Assembly (NCBI GenBank): GCA_028279765.1
Contig: JANQND010000023.1
Location: forward strand, 1 to 51,351
Source of the DNA: Candidatus Nanoarchaeia archaeon
GTDB lineage: Archaea > Nanobdellota > Nanobdellia > Woesearchaeales > WJIZ01
DNA: 51,351 nucleotides
Direction of reading: 5' to 3'
Part shown: in pieces, positions 2,296 to 13,304 of the stretch
How the letters are laid out: each line of letters begins with the position of its first letter
Numbering within the stretch: the stretch's first letter is position 1
Notes under the pieces: model-generated
Told to the model about the DNA's origin: nothing
What the model saw: the letters and a program-made list of their open reading frames with translations, nothing else
The model's database searches: none
Made by a program: the position numbers and the translations under genes

Positions 2296-3188
2296 TAGTG
2301 AATTTCCTTAGATATGTGACTTATTTTGTTAATTATATTGTGGTAGAAACTGAGTACTACTCCGTCATTTTCTGGTTTCTGTAGCAACTCAACAATTCTC
2401 CTCGACAAGTCTTTTACGCCTTTATTAAAATCAAAGAGCGCATCACTATCAAAATTATGAAATAGATCGTTAGTTTTTCTAAAATACTTTAAGCAATCCT
2501 GTGCTACTTTGATAGTACTTTTGCTAACTTTGAGTTTTCGAGATGATACGTGAGTGCAAATGTCTCTCAGTTCATCAACAATCTCTTCAATGAGCAAAAT
2601 AGTGTAGTATATTGAATTAGTCTTGTTTGAATCATGATATCCTTTTTTGTTGAGAATCCTTAGACAAAAATACGATAGCTTGTTGTTTGTTACTTCTAGA
2701 TTTTTAAGATTATCTAGCTTCAAGTAGTCGCTTTCGGAAAGCCCGCTTGAGAGGTCTTCCATCATGGATATTGTCGAGACAAATATTCTCCGAATAATGA
2801 CATCGAGATCATTATCCAATTCAGTTGCAACACTTTTTATGGTACAATAATTTGCTCCTTGTTGAATAATTTCATAGCCCATTAGAAGTTGAACTTCGTC
2901 CGAAACCAGATCAAAAACTTTCGGATCTTTATAGTTTACTTTTAGCTCAGTATATCCCTGAATATAGGGGGAAAATAACAACCTTCTTAAGAATCGTGAC
3001 GGGTTATCGATTTGTAGTTCAAGGGCTTTCTCCTTTGCTGATGTAGATAGCGAACTGATAATGAGTTCCTGTCCGGACTCCTCCACATCAACTTCATCAC
3101 CCTTCTTTATCCCGTACTTGATGGCCCATTTTCTTGGCAAACTAATTAGCTGCGTTGAATCTGCAATTTGGATAACTTTTCTTCTCAT
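2292..3188 (-). CDS. AbrB-PhoU family phosphate-uptake regulator
   Basis: 298 residues. Residues 3-45 form a SpoVT/AbrB-type DNA-binding hairpin (LISLPRKWAIKYGIKKGDEV), followed by helical sequence with PhoU-like spacing from about residue 120 to the end. Archaeal proteins with this arrangement are generally annotated as phosphate-uptake regulators. No phosphate transporter gene is nearby, so the target is open. The ATG at 3188 has the ribosome site AAGGGGGT just upstream and a TATA-like TTTATATTA at about 3216-3224. The gene faces the 30-residue ORF at 3330 across 141 bases that hold both promoters. Confidence 0.75.
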   Translation of the reverse strand: MRRKVIQIADSTQLISLPRKWAIKYGIKKGDEVDVEESGQELIISSLSTSAKEKALELQIDNPSRFLRRLLFSPYIQGYTELKVNYKDPKVFDLVSDEVQLLMGYEIIQQGANYCTIKSVATELDNDLDVIIRRIFVSTISMMEDLSSGLSESDYLKLDNLKNLEVTNNKLSYFCLRILNKKGYHDSNKTNSIYYTILLIEEIVDELRDICTHVSSRKLKVSKSTIKVAQDCLKYFRKTNDLFHNFDSDALFDFNKGVKDLSRRIVELLQKPENDGVVLSFYHNIINKISHISKEIHY

Positions 3189-3329
3189 TTGTACCCCCTT
3201 AATGTACCATAAGGTAATATAAACTTATATATAAAGATTTCTTTTTTTATAATACTTATAAATTTTAAGAAGAAATTATATAAAGTACCCTCTATTCCTA
3301 GATACTGAAAGATAGTGAGGTGGTTTACA
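3189..3329. promoter_or_regulatory. Divergent promoter region with short GTACC motifs
   Basis: Two promoters point away from each other. For the minus-strand regulator there is a ribosome site at about 3191-3199 and a TATA box near 3220. For the plus-strand small ORF there is AAATTATATAAAG at about 3273-3285 and GAGGTGG near 3317-3323. GTACC occurs at 3191, 3204 and 3285, and the 12-base imperfect palindrome TACCATAAGGTA lies at 3205-3216, near the expected start of the regulator transcript. It could be an autoregulatory site, but the motif is short and one copy overlaps the ribosome site. Confidence 0.45.
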
Positions 3330-3422
3330 ATGAAGAAACTGAAAAATAATACGAAAGATACAATGAAAACAGATGACTTTGAGCTTAGCTATGATGATGC
3401 CCCTATGCTTTCCCTGAAGTAA
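3330..3422 (+). CDS. Putative 30-residue charged peptide
   Basis: An ATG-started reading frame of 30 codons with a good ribosome site (GAGGTGG, about seven bases before the ATG) and a TATA box about 50 bases upstream. The product starts MKKLKNNTKDTMK and continues with an acidic part ending DDAPMLSLK. It has no hydrophobic segment. The stop lies two bases before the end of the convergent aIF2-gamma gene. Nothing in the sequence identifies a function. Support comes from the promoter, ribosome site and lack of competing frames; comparison with relatives would decide whether it is translated. Confidence 0.5.
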   Translation: MKKLKNNTKDTMKTDDFELSYDDAPMLSLK

Positions 3423-3424
3423 AT

Positions 3425-4720
3425 TTATTTTTCTTGAATTATTCCATATCCGATTAACCGGAACCGGTTGCCGAGCATTCGGGAAATAGTAATTCTCGAT
3501 CCAATGGCAGCGCACACAGGAAGCTTGAGTTTACAGAGAATTTTATCCTTCTTAAGTTCAGTGACTACCCCTACGGTAGATGCAGAATTCACGTTCATCA
3601 TGAGTGCTTCGCCTTTCTTGATAGGCTCTACAGCCTCATTCTTTGCTGTCCCCACTGCTCTTGCAAGCAGATGAACCTCCAGGCTTAAGTCATAATGAAC
3701 AGGAGGAAGCTTTCCCGGGATCCCTATCACAGATCCGGTCAGCTTGTCTGATTTTACGACGGAAGGATCAAGAAGAGTCATAATGCCTGTAGATCCTCCG
3801 GGCTTTGCAGCAGAAATGGCCTTTGTTCCTGATTTTAACCCGACGATAGATGCCTTCAGCGGCTGGAATATCTTTTGATTCTTCTCTACCACTTCATGGC
3901 CGGGACGTATCTCTATGTCCATCCCTTCTTTGAGTTCTCCCTCAATGAGGGACCCGCCAAGTACTCCTCCTACCAGGGAACCTACTTTTGAGCCTGGCTT
4001 ATTGATGTCAAAACTTCTTGCAACTAAGAACTGAGGATCCCTGGAACTGTCTCTCTGAGGGGTTGGAATTATTTTTTCTATGGTTCCAATTAATGCTGAA
4101 ATTCCCACATTGTGCTGTGCGGAAATAGGAATAATCGGTGCATTCTCGTAGGGAGTTCCCTTTAAGAATTCTTTAATTTGCTCGTGATTCTTGACTGCCT
4201 CTTCCTCTGAGACAAGATCAATTTTGTTTTGCACAACAATGATATTCTTAATGCCAACAATCTCCAGGGCCTGCAAATGTTCCCGCGTTTGAGGCTGCGG
4301 GCATTTTTCGCTTGCTGCAATAAGAAGAAGCGCCCCATCCATGATGGTTGCCCCTGCAAGCATCGTTGCCATAAGTGATTCGTGGCCAGGTGCATCAACA
4401 AAGCTTACTTTTCTCAATAAGGTTGCATCTTTTTGCTCTTCTGTAGTAAATGACCCATCTTTAAGCTGATAGAAACTGGTGTTTGCGTATCCCAGCCGGA
4501 TAGTGATTCCCCGCTTGATTTCTTCAGAGTGCGTATCTCCCCACTTTCCGGATAATCGCTCTAAGAGGGTTGTTTTTCCATGGTCAACATGGCCCACCAT
4601 GCCGATGTTTACTTCCGGCTGAATCTCATCCCCTGCAGGTTTCGCTTTTTTTGCAGTTTTTTTTGCTGTGCCTGTCTCTTTTTCAGAAGTCTTCTTTGCT
4701 TGTTTCTTTTTGGCACTCAT
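3425..4720 (-). CDS. eif2g: Translation initiation factor aIF2 subunit gamma
   Basis: 431 residues. The GTPase motifs are clear: GHVDHGKT at residues 43-50, DAPGHE near 110, and NKIDL near 163, followed by two beta-barrel domains ending in RLIGYGIIQ. The protein binds GTP and initiator Met-tRNA within the aIF2 heterotrimer. An extra N-terminal tail of about 35 residues is rich in Lys, Ala and Thr. The zinc-knuckle cysteines that most archaeal members carry between the G1 and G3 motifs are missing here: that stretch reads QLKDGSFTTEEQKDATLLRK. The gene follows S6e by 46 bases on the same strand, probably as one operon. aIF2 alpha and beta are not in the window. Confidence 0.97.
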   Translation of the reverse strand: MSAKKKQAKKTSEKETGTAKKTAKKAKPAGDEIQPEVNIGMVGHVDHGKTTLLERLSGKWGDTHSEEIKRGITIRLGYANTSFYQLKDGSFTTEEQKDATLLRKVSFVDAPGHESLMATMLAGATIMDGALLLIAASEKCPQPQTREHLQALEIVGIKNIIVVQNKIDLVSEEEAVKNHEQIKEFLKGTPYENAPIIPISAQHNVGISALIGTIEKIIPTPQRDSSRDPQFLVARSFDINKPGSKVGSLVGGVLGGSLIEGELKEGMDIEIRPGHEVVEKNQKIFQPLKASIVGLKSGTKAISAAKPGGSTGIMTLLDPSVVKSDKLTGSVIGIPGKLPPVHYDLSLEVHLLARAVGTAKNEAVEPIKKGEALMMNVNSASTVGVVTELKKDKILCKLKLPVCAAIGSRITISRMLGNRFRLIGYGIIQEK

Positions 4721-7228: not shown

Positions 7229-9172
7229 TTAATCTTTAGAATTCTCCCAGAGGAAATCAAAATATTTTCTGTAGTCTTGTGCAAGTTCTTGATTGTCTAT
7301 CAAAAACACAATAGATTTATCCCAGAGGACCTGAGCAACTTTGTTTCCAAAGACCCAGATAACAAGAGGGGATTTGAACTGTGCGGGGAGGTATTTTACC
7401 TTTGAATTTGGAAGCGCATTGAATGGGCTGCCCCTGGTTTCTTCAATACTGAGATGATGCCTTTGTATGCCTGCTTTGACCCTTTTTTGGTCCCATTCTG
7501 CAAAGAATTCTCTGTGGTTTTCAAGAATGGATGCATTTGCTCCGATGAGGTAGAGGTCTTGCTGCTGCTCCAGGACACTCCCGCATAATTCTTCAACTGC
7601 CTGTTTCCCCTGAAGGGTTACCATTTCCTGATTCCATAGGAGATCAAATTGCTGCTTGTAGACGTCCCGTATGTTTTTATTATTCATGATAATTGCAATA
7701 GGCTCATCATCCATCCAGTTGCTGATGACTACCTTTTCTTTGAAAATCCAGAATACACTAAGCTTACTGAACTCTGCTGAGAGAGTGTACTTCGTTCTTG
7801 CAAAGGGAAAAAGAGTAATCTTCCTTCCTCTGATTTCACTATCCACTATATTTCGAATCCGTATTCTTTTGGCCTTTGCCCGCTTTTCCCACTCCTCAAT
7901 GTAATCAGGGCGAGCATCAACGAAGTACCCTCTGGCACCGATGAAATCTATTCCTCCCTCTTCAAGAATGTCCTCAAAGAACTTCTCGATCTCATCTAAA
8001 CCTCTGACAATTTGAACATCCTGATTCCATAAAGAATCAAAATACGCCTTAATTGCCTGGACTACCTTTGCATCCTGAATGAGAAAACTAATGACATTGC
8101 TCTCCCAGAGAGTAATATAGAGCTTATCTTTATAGAAAGTCATTTGCAGCGGTGAGCGAAAACCTGCAGGTAAGAATTTGTACTCTTCTTTTTTGAGCTG
8201 TATCAGCTTCGGATAGTGCTTCATATCGTCGTTGAGAAGCATGTTGACCTTGATTCCTTTTTGCTCTCTTTTTTTGTGATACTGCGGGAAAAATTTTTTG
8301 AGTTTTGCTGTCTTCTCATGCCCTTTATTTGCATTAATGACAAAATACTCTTCTCCTGCTTTAAGATCAGTAAGTATCTGCTCAAAAAATTTTATTGCCT
8401 GGCCTTCCCCCTCATATACCTGAACTTTTTGATTCCATAATGCTTCAAAGTATGCGCGAAAACTGTCAGCAACCTGCTCATTTTTTATTTCTACAGAGAT
8501 AGGATTCTCAGAGGGAACTCCAAGCACTGTTGTATCCCTGAACACCTCGATCCAGGAAGGGGTTGAGATTTGAAAAGGCATGTATCTTGCATGGCAATAG
8601 TTGAATGAATTGCGATTGTCAAGTTCTTTCTTATCGACATCAGCATTGAAGAGTATTTTTGTTGCGATTTGCTTCTTTTCCCTTCGTGAATGATAATCCT
8701 GCCAATAGTTCTTTAGTTTTTCTGAGGAGAGGACTGAGGCACCCATGAAATAAAATTCCTCTCCTTTCTTTAGTTCCTGAAGTGTTTTTTCATGAGCAGT
8801 CTTTACTCCTTTAAAGCCCTCATAGATATTGACTTCCTGAGTTTTTTTTGATAACTCCTGCTTTAACAATAGCTCCGGCAATATCTTTTCAACTTCCTGC
8901 TCTTGCTCCTGGATTTTTTTTTGCTTTTCCTGTAAATAATCTTTTATTCGCTGAGGAGACGCGGCTTTGAAGAACTTACGGTTTTCTCTATTGATATAGC
9001 TCACTAGTCCCTTATCGATTAAGCGCTCAAGAATATCGTACACTTTTGATGAGGATACCTTCGCCTTATCGATGATAGGGCCTACGGTGCTGGACCCAAC
9101 TTCCAGAAGGGCAAAATACACCGAAATTTCACCCTTAGTGAGGCCAATTTCTTCCAGTATGTGAGACTGCAT
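7229..9172 (-). CDS. TrmB-family regulator with four tandem effector-domain repeats
   Basis: 647 residues, far longer than the usual 230-350 of TrmB proteins. Residues 1-80 form the TrmB winged helix (LTKGEISVYFALLEVG, SSSKVYDILERLIDKGL). Residues 80-110 are a coiled coil. Four related repeats of about 130 residues follow, at about 112-248, 249-384, 385-514 and 515-643. Each ends in a version of YFxxLWNQ and contains a central GxxFYxxGA-like strand and a WxxYxxxRxxK helix. TrmB C-terminal domains bind sugars or other ligands and change DNA binding. The divergent neighbour, a putative surface protein, is the natural target. A TATA box (TTTATATAGG) lies upstream on the minus strand. Confidence 0.85.
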   Translation of the reverse strand: MQSHILEEIGLTKGEISVYFALLEVGSSTVGPIIDKAKVSSSKVYDILERLIDKGLVSYINRENRKFFKAASPQRIKDYLQEKQKKIQEQEQEVEKILPELLLKQELSKKTQEVNIYEGFKGVKTAHEKTLQELKKGEEFYFMGASVLSSEKLKNYWQDYHSRREKKQIATKILFNADVDKKELDNRNSFNYCHARYMPFQISTPSWIEVFRDTTVLGVPSENPISVEIKNEQVADSFRAYFEALWNQKVQVYEGEGQAIKFFEQILTDLKAGEEYFVINANKGHEKTAKLKKFFPQYHKKREQKGIKVNMLLNDDMKHYPKLIQLKKEEYKFLPAGFRSPLQMTFYKDKLYITLWESNVISFLIQDAKVVQAIKAYFDSLWNQDVQIVRGLDEIEKFFEDILEEGGIDFIGARGYFVDARPDYIEEWEKRAKAKRIRIRNIVDSEIRGRKITLFPFARTKYTLSAEFSKLSVFWIFKEKVVISNWMDDEPIAIIMNNKNIRDVYKQQFDLLWNQEMVTLQGKQAVEELCGSVLEQQQDLYLIGANASILENHREFFAEWDQKRVKAGIQRHHLSIEETRGSPFNALPNSKVKYLPAQFKSPLVIWVFGNKVAQVLWDKSIVFLIDNQELAQDYRKYFDFLWENSKD

Positions 9173-9287
9173 ACACTAACATTTGTTCCCCACCTATATA
9201 AATCTTATTATTTCTACCCCTTTAGGGGGAGGTAATATTTAAATAGCATCTAATTACTACAATAGAGTAATAAAACGAGGTGGTACT
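9173..9287. promoter_or_regulatory. Divergent promoter region with two inverted repeats
   Basis: Between the two TATA boxes (minus strand about 9195-9204, plus strand TATTTAAATA at about 9236-9245) lies the palindrome CCCCTTTAGGGG at 9217-9228. A second inverted repeat, ATTACT (9253-9258) and AGTAAT (9266-9271) with a 7-base spacer, sits near the expected plus-strand transcription start. The ribosome site GAGGTGG is at 9277-9283. Both repeats are candidate operators for the TrmB-like protein. The sequence shows them directly; binding is an inference. Confidence 0.55.
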
Positions 9288-9395
9288 ATGATAACTGAAA
9301 TCGCATTGGTTTTGCTGGGATTCGTGGTATTCGCACTGAACGTGAAGCCCAATGAGGAGTATGATGAGCTGGATACTGGATATGGTGACCAATGA
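9288..9395 (+). CDS. Putative 35-residue single-pass membrane peptide
   Basis: ATG-started frame of 35 codons with a strong ribosome site (GAGGTGG, spacing four) and a TATA box about 45 bases upstream. The product has one hydrophobic segment, EIALVLLGFVVFALNV, followed by an acidic tail, KPNEEYDELDTGYGDQ. Its stop overlaps the next start as ATGA, so the two frames are probably translationally coupled. It could be an assembly or anchoring partner of the secreted protein downstream, or simply a leader ORF that controls its translation. No homologue is recognised. Confidence 0.6.
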   Translation: MITEIALVLLGFVVFALNVKPNEEYDELDTGYGDQ

Positions 9396-10435
9396 TGGGA
9401 CTGGATGATATTATGAAGAGGGCATTCCTGGGTATGCTTGGTCTGTTGATGCAAGCCGAAGCTGCTAGAGGAGATGAAAGTCCCCTGGATATCAAAGTCA
9501 AGGCAAATTATCGCTCAATACGCTTCCTTGAGGCACCCTCCAAAGAAATGGAGAATTTTAGTTCGAATGCCCTGAGAGTTACTGCTTTTGAAGCATATTC
9601 ATTTGATGAAAATTTCACTGTTGAGAGTTCGCAATCTACGAGGATCATTGATAGGAATTTTTTTGGTAATGAGCGATTCGATTCTGAGAAGCCGGCGTAC
9701 ACTGTTGACACTGCCTCTTTAGCTTTTCAAGAAGGCCCACTGAAAATCACAGGAGGAGTCTTCTATGATACACTACTTTCAAACAATGCTACAAGAGACC
9801 CAGATTTGCCTGCAACCGGATTCGTAGTACAATATGATACAGAGAGTAACGAAGACACAAAATTAACCGGAAGATTTGCAAAATATTTTGCTTCGAATAT
9901 GAACAATGATCCCAGTTTATCTCAATATAATTTTGAGGCTGTTTGTAGTACTACCAACGAAAGCTACTCAACTATCGTATCCGTGATGTACAGTACTATA
10001 GATGAGGAAGTAGATCACGATGGAAATGTAAATGAAGATGGTTACGATCGTTTCAGTTCCTTTGGAAAGATAACCTTTGATTTACCAGAAGACCCTCTTC
10101 TAAGTGGCATGAGTCTTTTTGGATCCTATTGGAGAACATTCAGAGATGATAACCATCATGATGCATATGTAGTAGGAATTGAGAAGGAACTAGTCGACGG
10201 GATTCGTTGTAAAGTGCTCTATGCAGAGCGAGAGTTAAGTAGCATTGGAGCTGACTTTCATGATGACTTAGCAAAGCAGGGGAAAATTTTTGCAGCTGGT
10301 GGAAGTGTTGATATTGGCGAAGTTTTTGATCTCGATAAGATTCTAGGAGCGGAAAAAATCGTCGCAGATATTGTCTACAAACAATCAGATATAGGTGTTA
10401 GTGCTGTACAGTTTGGCGTAAACATGACTTATTGA
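9392..10435 (+). CDS. Secreted protein with a beta-barrel/porin-like strand pattern
   Basis: 347 residues. A signal-peptide-like start, MKRAFLGMLGLLMQAEA, begins at residue 8, so the ATG at 9413 is a possible alternative start. The rest is rich in short amphipathic beta strands separated by turns containing D, N and G: LKITGGVFYDTL, TGFVVQYDT, TKLTGRFAKYFAS, AYVVGIEKEL, IRCKVLYAERE. It ends in AVQFGVNMTY, an aromatic C-terminus like that of bacterial outer-membrane beta-barrels. No transmembrane helix or lipobox follows the leader. It is coupled to the 35-residue ORF and divergent from the TrmB-like regulator. Alternatives are a soluble extracellular beta protein or an S-layer-associated protein. 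The barrel call is inference. Confidence 0.55.
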   Translation: MMGLDDIMKRAFLGMLGLLMQAEAARGDESPLDIKVKANYRSIRFLEAPSKEMENFSSNALRVTAFEAYSFDENFTVESSQSTRIIDRNFFGNERFDSEKPAYTVDTASLAFQEGPLKITGGVFYDTLLSNNATRDPDLPATGFVVQYDTESNEDTKLTGRFAKYFASNMNNDPSLSQYNFEAVCSTTNESYSTIVSVMYSTIDEEVDHDGNVNEDGYDRFSSFGKITFDLPEDPLLSGMSLFGSYWRTFRDDNHHDAYVVGIEKELVDGIRCKVLYAERELSSIGADFHDDLAKQGKIFAAGGSVDIGEVFDLDKILGAEKIVADIVYKQSDIGVSAVQFGVNMTY

Positions 10436-10452
10436 AGAATCTGATCAAATGC

Positions 10453-11628
10453 CTAACCATATAAATCGCTCGTAACTTTTCCTGCTTTAATCGTATCCAC
10501 ATATGTTGATTCAAGCTTGTCTTTTTTCTTTTTGATGTGCTTGCCGGATAAGACCGTTTTGCCTGAGACAAATACACCCATCTCCTTGCCTAAGGAACAG
10601 TAGAATTTGTTTTTCATTTGCCTGTAGGGTTTTAATTTCCTGCCATTGAGAAGCGCATGCACGTTATAGGCAATATATCGTGCCTGGTCAATTGCGTTTT
10701 GGGCAGTTTTAACGTAAGGAAGGGCGGGGTTTTTCGGGCAGATGCAATCTCCTGCACCGAAAATAGAGGGATGTGTGGTGGACTGCAGAAATTCGTTAAC
10801 CATCATTCCTCCACCAGGAAGGCCGCGCTCACCTGCTTTCTCTGAGTATTCCAAGCTGGATTCTATTATCAGGGGATGCGTTCTCAATCCCCCACACCAA
10901 ACCCCCAGATCGTATGCAAGAGATTCTTTAGAGCAAAAAATCCGTGACTGCGTTACCCGCCTGATTTTTTTATCTGTAAGAAGAGATATTCCCTGTTTTT
11001 TGAGATACGCTGTTGCTGCCTTTATTGCTTTATCAGGCAGGCTGGCAAGGATAGAGGGAGCAGCATCAATGAGGGAAACAGAAAAGTTCTTCGGATTTTT
11101 TTTTCGTTGCCTGCATTCTGAGAATATATGTTCCTGCAGTGAGCTTGCAAATTCTACACCTGTCAGCCCTGCACCGCAAATAGAAAATTGGTGCTTTTTC
11201 TTGCTGCTGATGGCCCAGGAGACGTATTCATAAATCTGCTGCGCATCTCCCCTGGTTTTGAGATCAAGCAGGTACTGCTGCGCACCCGGCACTGCATAAT
11301 AATTTGTCTGGGCGCCGATTGCTATGATTAGCACATCATAATGAATTGTTTTGATATTTTTGGTATGAACCCTCTTCTTTTTGGGATCAATGGAGAGAAC
11401 CGTGTCCCGATAATGAAGAATATCTTTTTGATGAAGCAGCTGCGATGCCAGAATGCACACGTTGCTCTCGTCCTGCTCTCCTGCTGCAGTCTCATAGAGC
11501 CCGGGCACAAAGGTAAAGCAGTCATCGTTGTGTATAAGAAGAATTTCTGCCTTTTTTTCGAGCCGCTTGAGCCTAAGGGAAGTCTCCATACCGGCAAACC
11601 CGCCGCCTATGATGATTACGCGCTTCAT
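10453..11628 (-). CDS. Type II NADH dehydrogenase / sulfide-quinone reductase family flavoprotein
   Basis: 391 residues with two Rossmann motifs: VIIIGGGFAGMET at residues 4-16 for FAD, and FSICGAGLTGVEFA near 148-161 for NAD(P)H. IFGAGDCIC near 290 is the second FAD contact. The length and the block FTFVPGLYETAAG match NDH-2/FAD-dependent pyridine nucleotide-disulfide oxidoreductases, which pass electrons from NADH to a quinone or another acceptor at the membrane. The C-terminal amphipathic helix typical of membrane-bound NDH-2 is short, and the CxxC of disulfide reductases is absent, so the acceptor is unknown. A TATA-like TATTTAAAG lies about 20-25 bases before the ATG. Confidence 0.82.
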   Translation of the reverse strand: MKRVIIIGGGFAGMETSLRLKRLEKKAEILLIHNDDCFTFVPGLYETAAGEQDESNVCILASQLLHQKDILHYRDTVLSIDPKKKRVHTKNIKTIHYDVLIIAIGAQTNYYAVPGAQQYLLDLKTRGDAQQIYEYVSWAISSKKKHQFSICGAGLTGVEFASSLQEHIFSECRQRKKNPKNFSVSLIDAAPSILASLPDKAIKAATAYLKKQGISLLTDKKIRRVTQSRIFCSKESLAYDLGVWCGGLRTHPLIIESSLEYSEKAGERGLPGGGMMVNEFLQSTTHPSIFGAGDCICPKNPALPYVKTAQNAIDQARYIAYNVHALLNGRKLKPYRQMKNKFYCSLGKEMGVFVSGKTVLSGKHIKKKKDKLESTYVDTIKAGKVTSDLYG

Positions 11629-11772: not shown

Positions 11773-12561
11773 CTACAGCTTTCCGCCACCTATTTTTTTG
11801 AGCGCTGTCAATGCTTCCTTAGGCAGCGCATACACCACAGTATTACTTTTGTCTGAACTCAAATCATTGATCGTCTGCAGGGTCCTTAGATGCAGTGCAC
11901 CTGGATTCTTTGTCAGGTTTTTTGCCGATGCTGCAATGTTTTGTGCTGCAGAGACCTCTCCTTCAGATTTGATGATGACAGACCTTCGTTCCCGCTCTGC
12001 TTCTGCCTGCTTTGCCATCACTCGCTGCATTTCCTTTGGCACTTCAATGTGCTTGAGTTCTACAGAGTCCACTTTAATGCCCCAGGGGTCTGTTGCGAGG
12101 TCCACAATTTCCTGCACCTTCTTGCTGATGTTGTCCCTGCTGCTAAGCAGTTCATCAAGCATTACCTCACCGACCACGTTTCGCAGAGTTGTCTGGGCAA
12201 CCTGTGAGGTGGCAAACATGAAATCACGAACTTCAAGAACGGATCTTTTTGCATCAGTCACCTTATAATATAATACAGCATTGATTTTCACGGAAACATT
12301 ATCTTTTGTAATCGTTTCCTGGTCAGGTACGTCGATGACTTTTGTCCGAATATCGATCCTTTGCCAGGATTGCAGGATAGGCAACACGACTTTCAGGCCG
12401 GGATCCATGACACTGGAAAACCTGCCAAGCGTGAATTTGATTCCTCTTTCATACTGGTTTACAACTTTTAGGCCCAGAAGTACCCAGCCAATCAATACGA
12501 GGATAATAATTCCGGCTGTTCCGGCACCAATTAAGAGAGTTATTATAGGTTCCATTTGCAT
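11773..12561 (-). CDS. SPFH/band-7 protein (slipin/stomatin), downstream copy
   Basis: About 262 residues. An N-terminal membrane helix (LIGAGTAGIIILVLIGWVLL) is followed by the band-7 domain, with NQYERGIKFTLGRF, VVDVP-like IDVPDQETITKDNVSV and DPWGIKVDSVELKHIEVP. Slipins form membrane-bound rings thought to organise microdomains or guard proteases. Its start overlaps the stop of the upstream stomatin gene (TGATG at 12559-12563), so translation is coupled; a second ATG at 12555 would be better spaced from GAGGTG. It is paralogous to its neighbour over the whole length. No NfeD protease gene is next to the pair. Confidence 0.88.
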   Translation of the reverse strand: MQMEPIITLLIGAGTAGIIILVLIGWVLLGLKVVNQYERGIKFTLGRFSSVMDPGLKVVLPILQSWQRIDIRTKVIDVPDQETITKDNVSVKINAVLYYKVTDAKRSVLEVRDFMFATSQVAQTTLRNVVGEVMLDELLSSRDNISKKVQEIVDLATDPWGIKVDSVELKHIEVPKEMQRVMAKQAEAERERRSVIIKSEGEVSAAQNIAASAKNLTKNPGALHLRTLQTINDLSSDKSNTVVYALPKEALTALKKIGGGKL

Positions 12562-13304
12562 CACCTCACACTCATGCCTTCCAAGGCGCCCAGGCTCTCA
12601 ATCGGAACCGCAAAAACAATGGTGTTTGTTTGATCGGAGCTAATGTCATTGAGATTCTGTAATGTTCGCAGGTGCACTGCCCCTTTGGTTGAGCCAAGCA
12701 CCTTTGCCGCCTGCATAAGCTTCTCACTTGCGATCCGCTCACCGTCTGCCCGAATAATAATTGCCCGACGCTCACGCTCGGATTCTGCTTCTTTTGCCAT
12801 GGTTCTCTTCATGTTTTCAGGGAGCTCTACATCCTTGAGATCAACTGCATCCACTTTGATACCCCACTCATCGGTAGCCTTGTCCACGATACTTTCAATC
12901 TTCTTGCTGATTTGATCTCTCTGTCCCAAAAGCTGATCAAGCGTAACCTCTCCTACTGCATTTCGCATGGTTGTCTGAGCAAGCTGCGAGACCGCATACA
13001 AATAATTTTCCACCTGGATAACCGCTTTTTGTGCAGTGCTTACTTTGAAGTACAGTACTGCGTTTACCCGCACTGATACGTTATCCTTTGTAATACAATC
13101 CTGGTCCGGAACATCAACGACATTGACACGCATGTCCACACGCTGCCAGGTCTGAATGACTGGTATGACCAGCCGAAGACCTGGTTTCATCATGCCTGAG
13201 AATTTACCGAAGGTGAACTTCACTCCACGTTCGTATTGAAAAACAATCTTTAGACTTGAGAGCAGGATAAGCCCTGCAATATATAATAGAATTGTCCATG
13301 CCAT
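12561..13304 (-). CDS. SPFH/band-7 protein (slipin/stomatin), upstream copy
   Basis: 247 residues with an N-terminal membrane helix (ILLYIAGLILLSSL) and band-7 blocks FQYERGVKFTFGKF, VNVVDVPDQDCITKDNVSV and DEWGIKVDAVDLKDVELP. It differs from the downstream copy mainly at the two ends. Tandem slipins suggest a mixed oligomer, though that is inference. The ATG at 13304 has a ribosome site AAGGGGGT about eight bases upstream and a TATA-like ATATTTATTAA about 40 bases upstream. The two genes form one transcription unit. Confidence 0.88.
   Translation of the reverse strand: MAWTILLYIAGLILLSSLKIVFQYERGVKFTFGKFSGMMKPGLRLVIPVIQTWQRVDMRVNVVDVPDQDCITKDNVSVRVNAVLYFKVSTAQKAVIQVENYLYAVSQLAQTTMRNAVGEVTLDQLLGQRDQISKKIESIVDKATDEWGIKVDAVDLKDVELPENMKRTMAKEAESERERRAIIIRADGERIASEKLMQAAKVLGSTKGAVHLRTLQNLNDISSDQTNTIVFAVPIESLGALEGMSVR

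Follow-up and report, generated by a model that had tools for sequence, protein, structure and literature searches.

KdgM and NanC are 12-stranded oligosaccharide channels of Gram-negative bacteria, and porin-like beta-barrels are held to mark Gram-negative bacteria and organelles. The archaea considered here are not known to have an outer membrane, and outer-membrane barrel proteins are not expected in archaea. Ihomp1, a pore protein from the archaeal outer membrane of Ignicoccus hospitalis, is a 6.2-kDa protein that forms oligomeric pores and has no recognized homologues in other archaea (PMC5468417). On the regulatory side, TrmB-type proteins such as TrmB and TrmBL1 of Thermococcales and Halobacterium bind TACT-N3-AGTA and TACT-N7-8-GAGTA sites; the known regulators act as activators from sites ahead of the TATA box and as repressors from sites at or beyond it (PMC4158304).

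We analyzed a stretch of 51,351 nucleotides (hereafter the window) from an archaeal genome of 1.5 Mb that is ~90% complete. The gene under study (9392..10435, + strand) encodes a 347-aa orphan protein that we propose, from its genomic slot, to be an exported porin-like beta-barrel. Divergent from it lies a TrmB-type regulator of 647 aa (7229..9172, − strand). The preliminary description had paired the putative barrel with a 35-residue membrane peptide and had not mentioned the regulator; our comparisons identify the regulator, and not the peptide, as the conserved partner. We consider it likely that the 347-aa gene represents, at this locus, a conserved module—a multi-sensor TrmB-type regulator facing a divergent gene for an exported transmembrane beta-barrel. 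Contamination was rejected as a source of the gene, because archaeal genes flank it on both sides in the contig and its promoter is archaeal.

Several features first read from the 347-aa product hold up, and its fold is where support thins. Both open frames exist as described, the 35-aa frame at 9288–9395 and the 347-aa frame at 9392–10435 on the + strand, overlapping by ATGA at 9392–9395. The composition of the longer frame is coding-like (GC12 0.44 versus GC3 0.33), with the codon score highest in its own frame. Its signal-peptide-like start is most natural from the third methionine, Met8 at 9413 (MKRAFLGMLGLLMQAEA), and the candidate Sec signal peptide from there (MKRAFLGMLGLLMQAEAA; 9413..9466, +) passes a simple signal-peptide rule, by which the protein has no other transmembrane helix. 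The aromatic, outer-membrane-type C terminus is likewise borne out: The beta-signal-like octapeptide QFGVNMTY (10409..10432, +) fits the strict bacterial pattern of a terminal polar-x-G-x-x-hydrophobic-x-hydrophobic; among 540 background ORFs, this pattern is matched by 7. The claimed amphipathic strands fared less well, with an alternation z of 0.9 and a barrel-model z of 0.8–1.0 that do not separate the protein from nonbarrels, and a single-sequence AlphaFold2 model was unusable (pLDDT 32). Searches of Pfam, PHROG, NCBIfam, and the PDB returned no match; no convincing relative was found in its own genome, where it also has no paralogue, in 371 genomes of the phylum, or in 353 genomes of the order, nor did collections of genomes and of viral contigs, or plasmids and phages, yield one. 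The best weak match (E 2e-4) was a DNA polymerase B and the others were chance, including plasmid matches at E 0.3.

The regulator shares the N-terminal winged-helix domain of TrmB and TrmBL1 (PF01978; 57.9 bits against a cut-off of 25.6, E 8.9e-16) and departs from them beyond it. Four tandem repeats of ~134 aa (residues 114–249, 250–385, 386–517, and 518–647) follow the domain and align at z 9–14.5, whereas the described regulators have one effector domain. In the match to PDB 3qph (E 4.6e-06), residues 3–94 alone align, and the repeats show no match to the effector portion of TrmB. Against the NCBIfam cut-offs for TrmB, the protein falls well short (34.8 of 600 bits). Homologous regulators, whose named members are mostly Candidatus Woesearchaeota, increase in length by steps of ~135 aa (~250, ~385, ~515, ~660, and ~795 aa), length classes that, read from the sequences, are one to five tandem sensor-like repeats; those of the module carry two to five.

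The promoter is a conserved part of the locus. A 35-bp block, TTTCTACCCCTTTAGGGGGAGGTAATATTTAAATA (9211..9245, +), combines a putative operator, CCCC-TTTA-GGGG (9217–9235), with the TATA box that follows it (9236–9245). Around the expected transcription start lies the palindrome TTACT-N7-AGTAA (9254..9270, +), a putative TrmB-type operator. The block, with the form TTTCTCCCCC-N4-GGGGTAGGTAATATTTATATA (42.7 bits), was scored in 29 intergenic regions, the window's among them, and is present in 28; the 29th (L137) has a weak match. Scored with itself left out, the window copy reaches 51.6 bits, and the next, unrelated site in the window reaches −5.4. The 19-bp palindromic core occurs once per genome in the three family genomes carrying the module, and a TACT...AGTA palindrome, visible in many other loci, usually lies downstream of the block near the expected transcription start. 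The block is kept although the partner proteins are not. Related CCCC...GGGG elements accompany several one-repeat TrmBs, so part of the operator belongs to a wider regulator group. The palindrome, and the placement of sites ahead of the TATA box or around the transcription start, recall TrmB and TrmBL1 (PMC4158304); the additional CCCC-N4-GGGG putative operator, and a target that would be an exported barrel in place of a sugar ABC transporter, set the module apart. Since both known TrmB site positions are occupied here, dual control by activation and repression is plausible.

The first ORF of the transcript is the 35-aa single-pass peptide (9288..9395, +), which takes the canonical first-gene position 45 bp beyond the promoter block, behind a ribosome-binding site, GAGGTGG (9277..9283, +); several other module loci likewise have GAGGTG ahead of the start. 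With its own ribosome site, the TATA box, and the first-gene position, this ORF is probably translated. It is present in a single copy in its genome and is not conserved elsewhere. At almost every other locus, the gene for the barrel-like protein starts 29–75 bp past the block, which leaves no room for such an ORF and makes the peptide a local addition; the proposed coupling of peptide and barrel therefore fails as a conserved feature, and we rejected the two as a functional unit. At three loci (L093, L119, and L125), one or two additional ORFs separate the promoter block from the barrel-like gene, as the peptide does in the window.

Conservation of the regulator–barrel slot was assessed by scanning named genomes with the regulator alignment, which yielded 68 loci; 30 regulators of at least 375 aa (two or more repeats) were compared with 35 one-domain TrmBs with a readable neighbor. 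About 28 of the 30 regulators with two to five repeats, from Woesearchaeota and their kin, face an exported beta-barrel-like protein, and one locus (L129) has a clearly different neighbor; one-domain TrmBs, as a rule, have no such partner in the slot. Divergent partners were signal-peptide-like at 23/30 multirepeat versus 6/35 one-repeat loci (P = 1.5e-6) and had an alternating hydrophobic C terminus at 20/30 versus 3/35 (P = 1.1e-6). In 20 further neighborhoods across the order, each multirepeat regulator stands opposite a 200–380-aa, mostly signal-peptide-bearing protein, many with outer-membrane-like C termini (VELQLKF, FRINF, VTYRF, IQYKF, and GVRYRF). Regulator relatives in two genomes of the window's taxonomic family also face an exported protein; these two partners (L017, 409–1305, −; L030, 3035–3844, +) carry a lipobox-like LAGC motif, which suggests lipid-anchored surface proteins.

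The partners form two main sequence families and many singletons, mostly unalignable. Families A and B do not align with each other, and the window protein showed no detectable homology to the partners, with no signal in profile comparisons to either family. A contrast is seen between the window and L072/L092, where the regulators are 66% identical and the partners (347 and 351 aa) align at chance level (z 1.6). We infer either that unrelated barrels refill the slot or that its occupant diversifies very fast, as host- or virus-facing surface proteins do. A reverse search with family B found 16 of 353 genomes positive, each with a single copy, which in 12 of them lies next to a TrmB gene or at a distance of one gene; the association thus runs in both directions and is not absolute. 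At L171, a single family-B barrel relative occurs with no TrmB in the examined stretch, divergent from another secreted protein; the two genes lie at 1495–2343 (−) and 2597–3579 (+).

Structural evidence for the slot comes from the partners. For the family-B partner L104, an AlphaFold2 model built from an 8-row alignment gave 12 strands at a mean pLDDT of 89.8 and a pTM of 0.80, and all 50 of the 50 Foldseek PDB matches listed were transmembrane barrels or designs of such barrels. The best global fits were NanC (TM 0.70/0.65) and KdgM (0.68/0.73). In the model strands, 2 charged residues fall on one face and 21 on the opposite one, as expected, on this model, for a lipid-facing exterior and a polar lumen. 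Beyond this predicted fold, which superposes at a TM of about 0.7, the likeness to KdgM and NanC extends to a signal peptide, a C-terminal beta-signal, and regulated expression. The differences are as marked: L104 has no sequence similarity to them (6–8% identity in the structural alignment, with no PDB or Pfam sequence match), and the module has an archaeal host, promoter, and regulator, with no Omp85 found in the window's genome. Compared with known porin families in Pfam, NCBIfam, and the PDB, no partner exceeded a curated cut-off, the best being OMP_b-brl at E 0.11 (L089). Like Ihomp1, the partners would be archaeal pore proteins, but they are predicted beta-barrels of 200–380 aa.

A simple hydrophobic-alternation statistic did not separate barrels from Ig-like secreted proteins and was rejected as a barrel test. 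We used instead a segment model of strands with out/in alternation, trained on archaeal partners only. Seven unseen Escherichia coli outer-membrane proteins scored z 1.6–4.7 and twelve nonbarrel controls −1.7 to 1.8, an overlap with the weakest E. coli barrels that makes single scores below 2 uninformative. Most held-out partners scored 3–6, with L092 at 2.2 and L110 at 3.7; the two partners from the window's own taxonomic family scored 0.3 and 0.8, and the window's Ig-like secreted proteins 1.5–1.8. An outer-envelope barrel in an archaeon, as the preliminary description proposed, is thus upheld for the gene slot, by the family-B model and by most counterparts scoring as barrels. The window protein itself, with its low score of 0.8–1.0, is a candidate barrel by virtue of its locus, promoter, signal peptide, and C terminus rather than its fold.

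That low score leaves room for a different occupant, namely a secreted soluble or surface-anchored beta-rich protein, a beta-sandwich or similar, that has replaced the barrel here while only the other members are barrels. Such a protein would account for a score no better than that of the Ig-like proteins and for the missing sequence link to barrel families, and the lipobox-like N termini of the two own-family partners suggest surface lipoproteins there. It sits poorly with the strict C-terminal beta-signal, the lack of any other membrane anchor, and a length like that of a 16-stranded porin and of the barrel-scoring partners L092 and L110; we judge replacement distinctly unlikely. A chance or decaying frame that yields no functional protein is a highly improbable reading of the ORF pair: The genomes searched hold no homologue, but composition is coding-like, signal peptide and C terminus are intact, and so are the conserved promoter and ribosome site.

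A separate question is which membrane the barrels reach. A search of the ~90% complete genome for Omp85 (PF01103), which inserts barrels, detected its positive controls and no Omp85, so the cell's own outer layer and a host's membrane are both candidate targets. DPANN archaea are thought to be symbionts, and barrels released or presented to insert into a host or neighbor membrane could open nutrient exchange for such a cell; strong divergence of the partners beside a conserved regulator is what proteins facing other cells would show, and the missing Omp85 points the same way. However, we saw neither a secretion system nor any toxin-like feature, and the envelope in which a bacterial-type C-terminal signal is read is normally that of the producer itself, which leaves delivery into another cell somewhat unlikely in our estimate.

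For the conserved regulator–barrel module, we envisage that the TrmB-type protein, as repressor or activator, would bind the CCCC-N4-GGGG and TACT...AGTA elements and respond to small molecules, probably sugars. Upon its release, the barrel would be exported by Sec and would insert into a membrane beyond the cytoplasmic one, where it may act as a solute channel, possibly for oligosaccharides, or as a variable surface receptor. The window protein, though unalignable, would be a larger barrel, of about 16 strands by its length, with the same job. The literature searched, which had subscription journals and preprints outside its scope, held no description of such proteins in Woesearchaeota or Nanoarchaeota. 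Tentatively, then, we suggest an undescribed system spanning the order in Woesearchaeota, in which porin-like barrels under multi-sensor TrmB control reach an outside membrane, their own or a host's, without Omp85, and in which promoter and regulator persist while the barrel at the slot is swapped or rapidly diversifies. A regulated archaeal module of this breadth bears on the construction and nutrition of little-known and presumably symbiotic cells, on the possibility that some archaea possess or breach a second membrane, and on whether barrels can insert without Omp85; it is also compact enough for laboratory testing.

The surroundings of the barrel-like genes vary. In the window, an FAD/NAD oxidoreductase (10453–11628), closest to the "Nterm_to_SelD" group, is convergent with the 347-aa gene. 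It is mostly absent from other family genomes, and conserved synteny with it was rejected, with a match in one of six other family genomes at 26% identity. A tandem pair of overlapping SPFH/HflK-like membrane proteins occupies 11773–13304. Elsewhere, the barrel-like gene of L080/L099 (G462) is split between two frames that overlap, which may reflect a frameshift or a copy in decay. In 5 of the 20 loci across the order (L073, L074, L079, L082, and L084), a B12-binding radical SAM enzyme of ~440 aa lies directly 3′ of the barrel-like gene and might modify lipids or the barrel.
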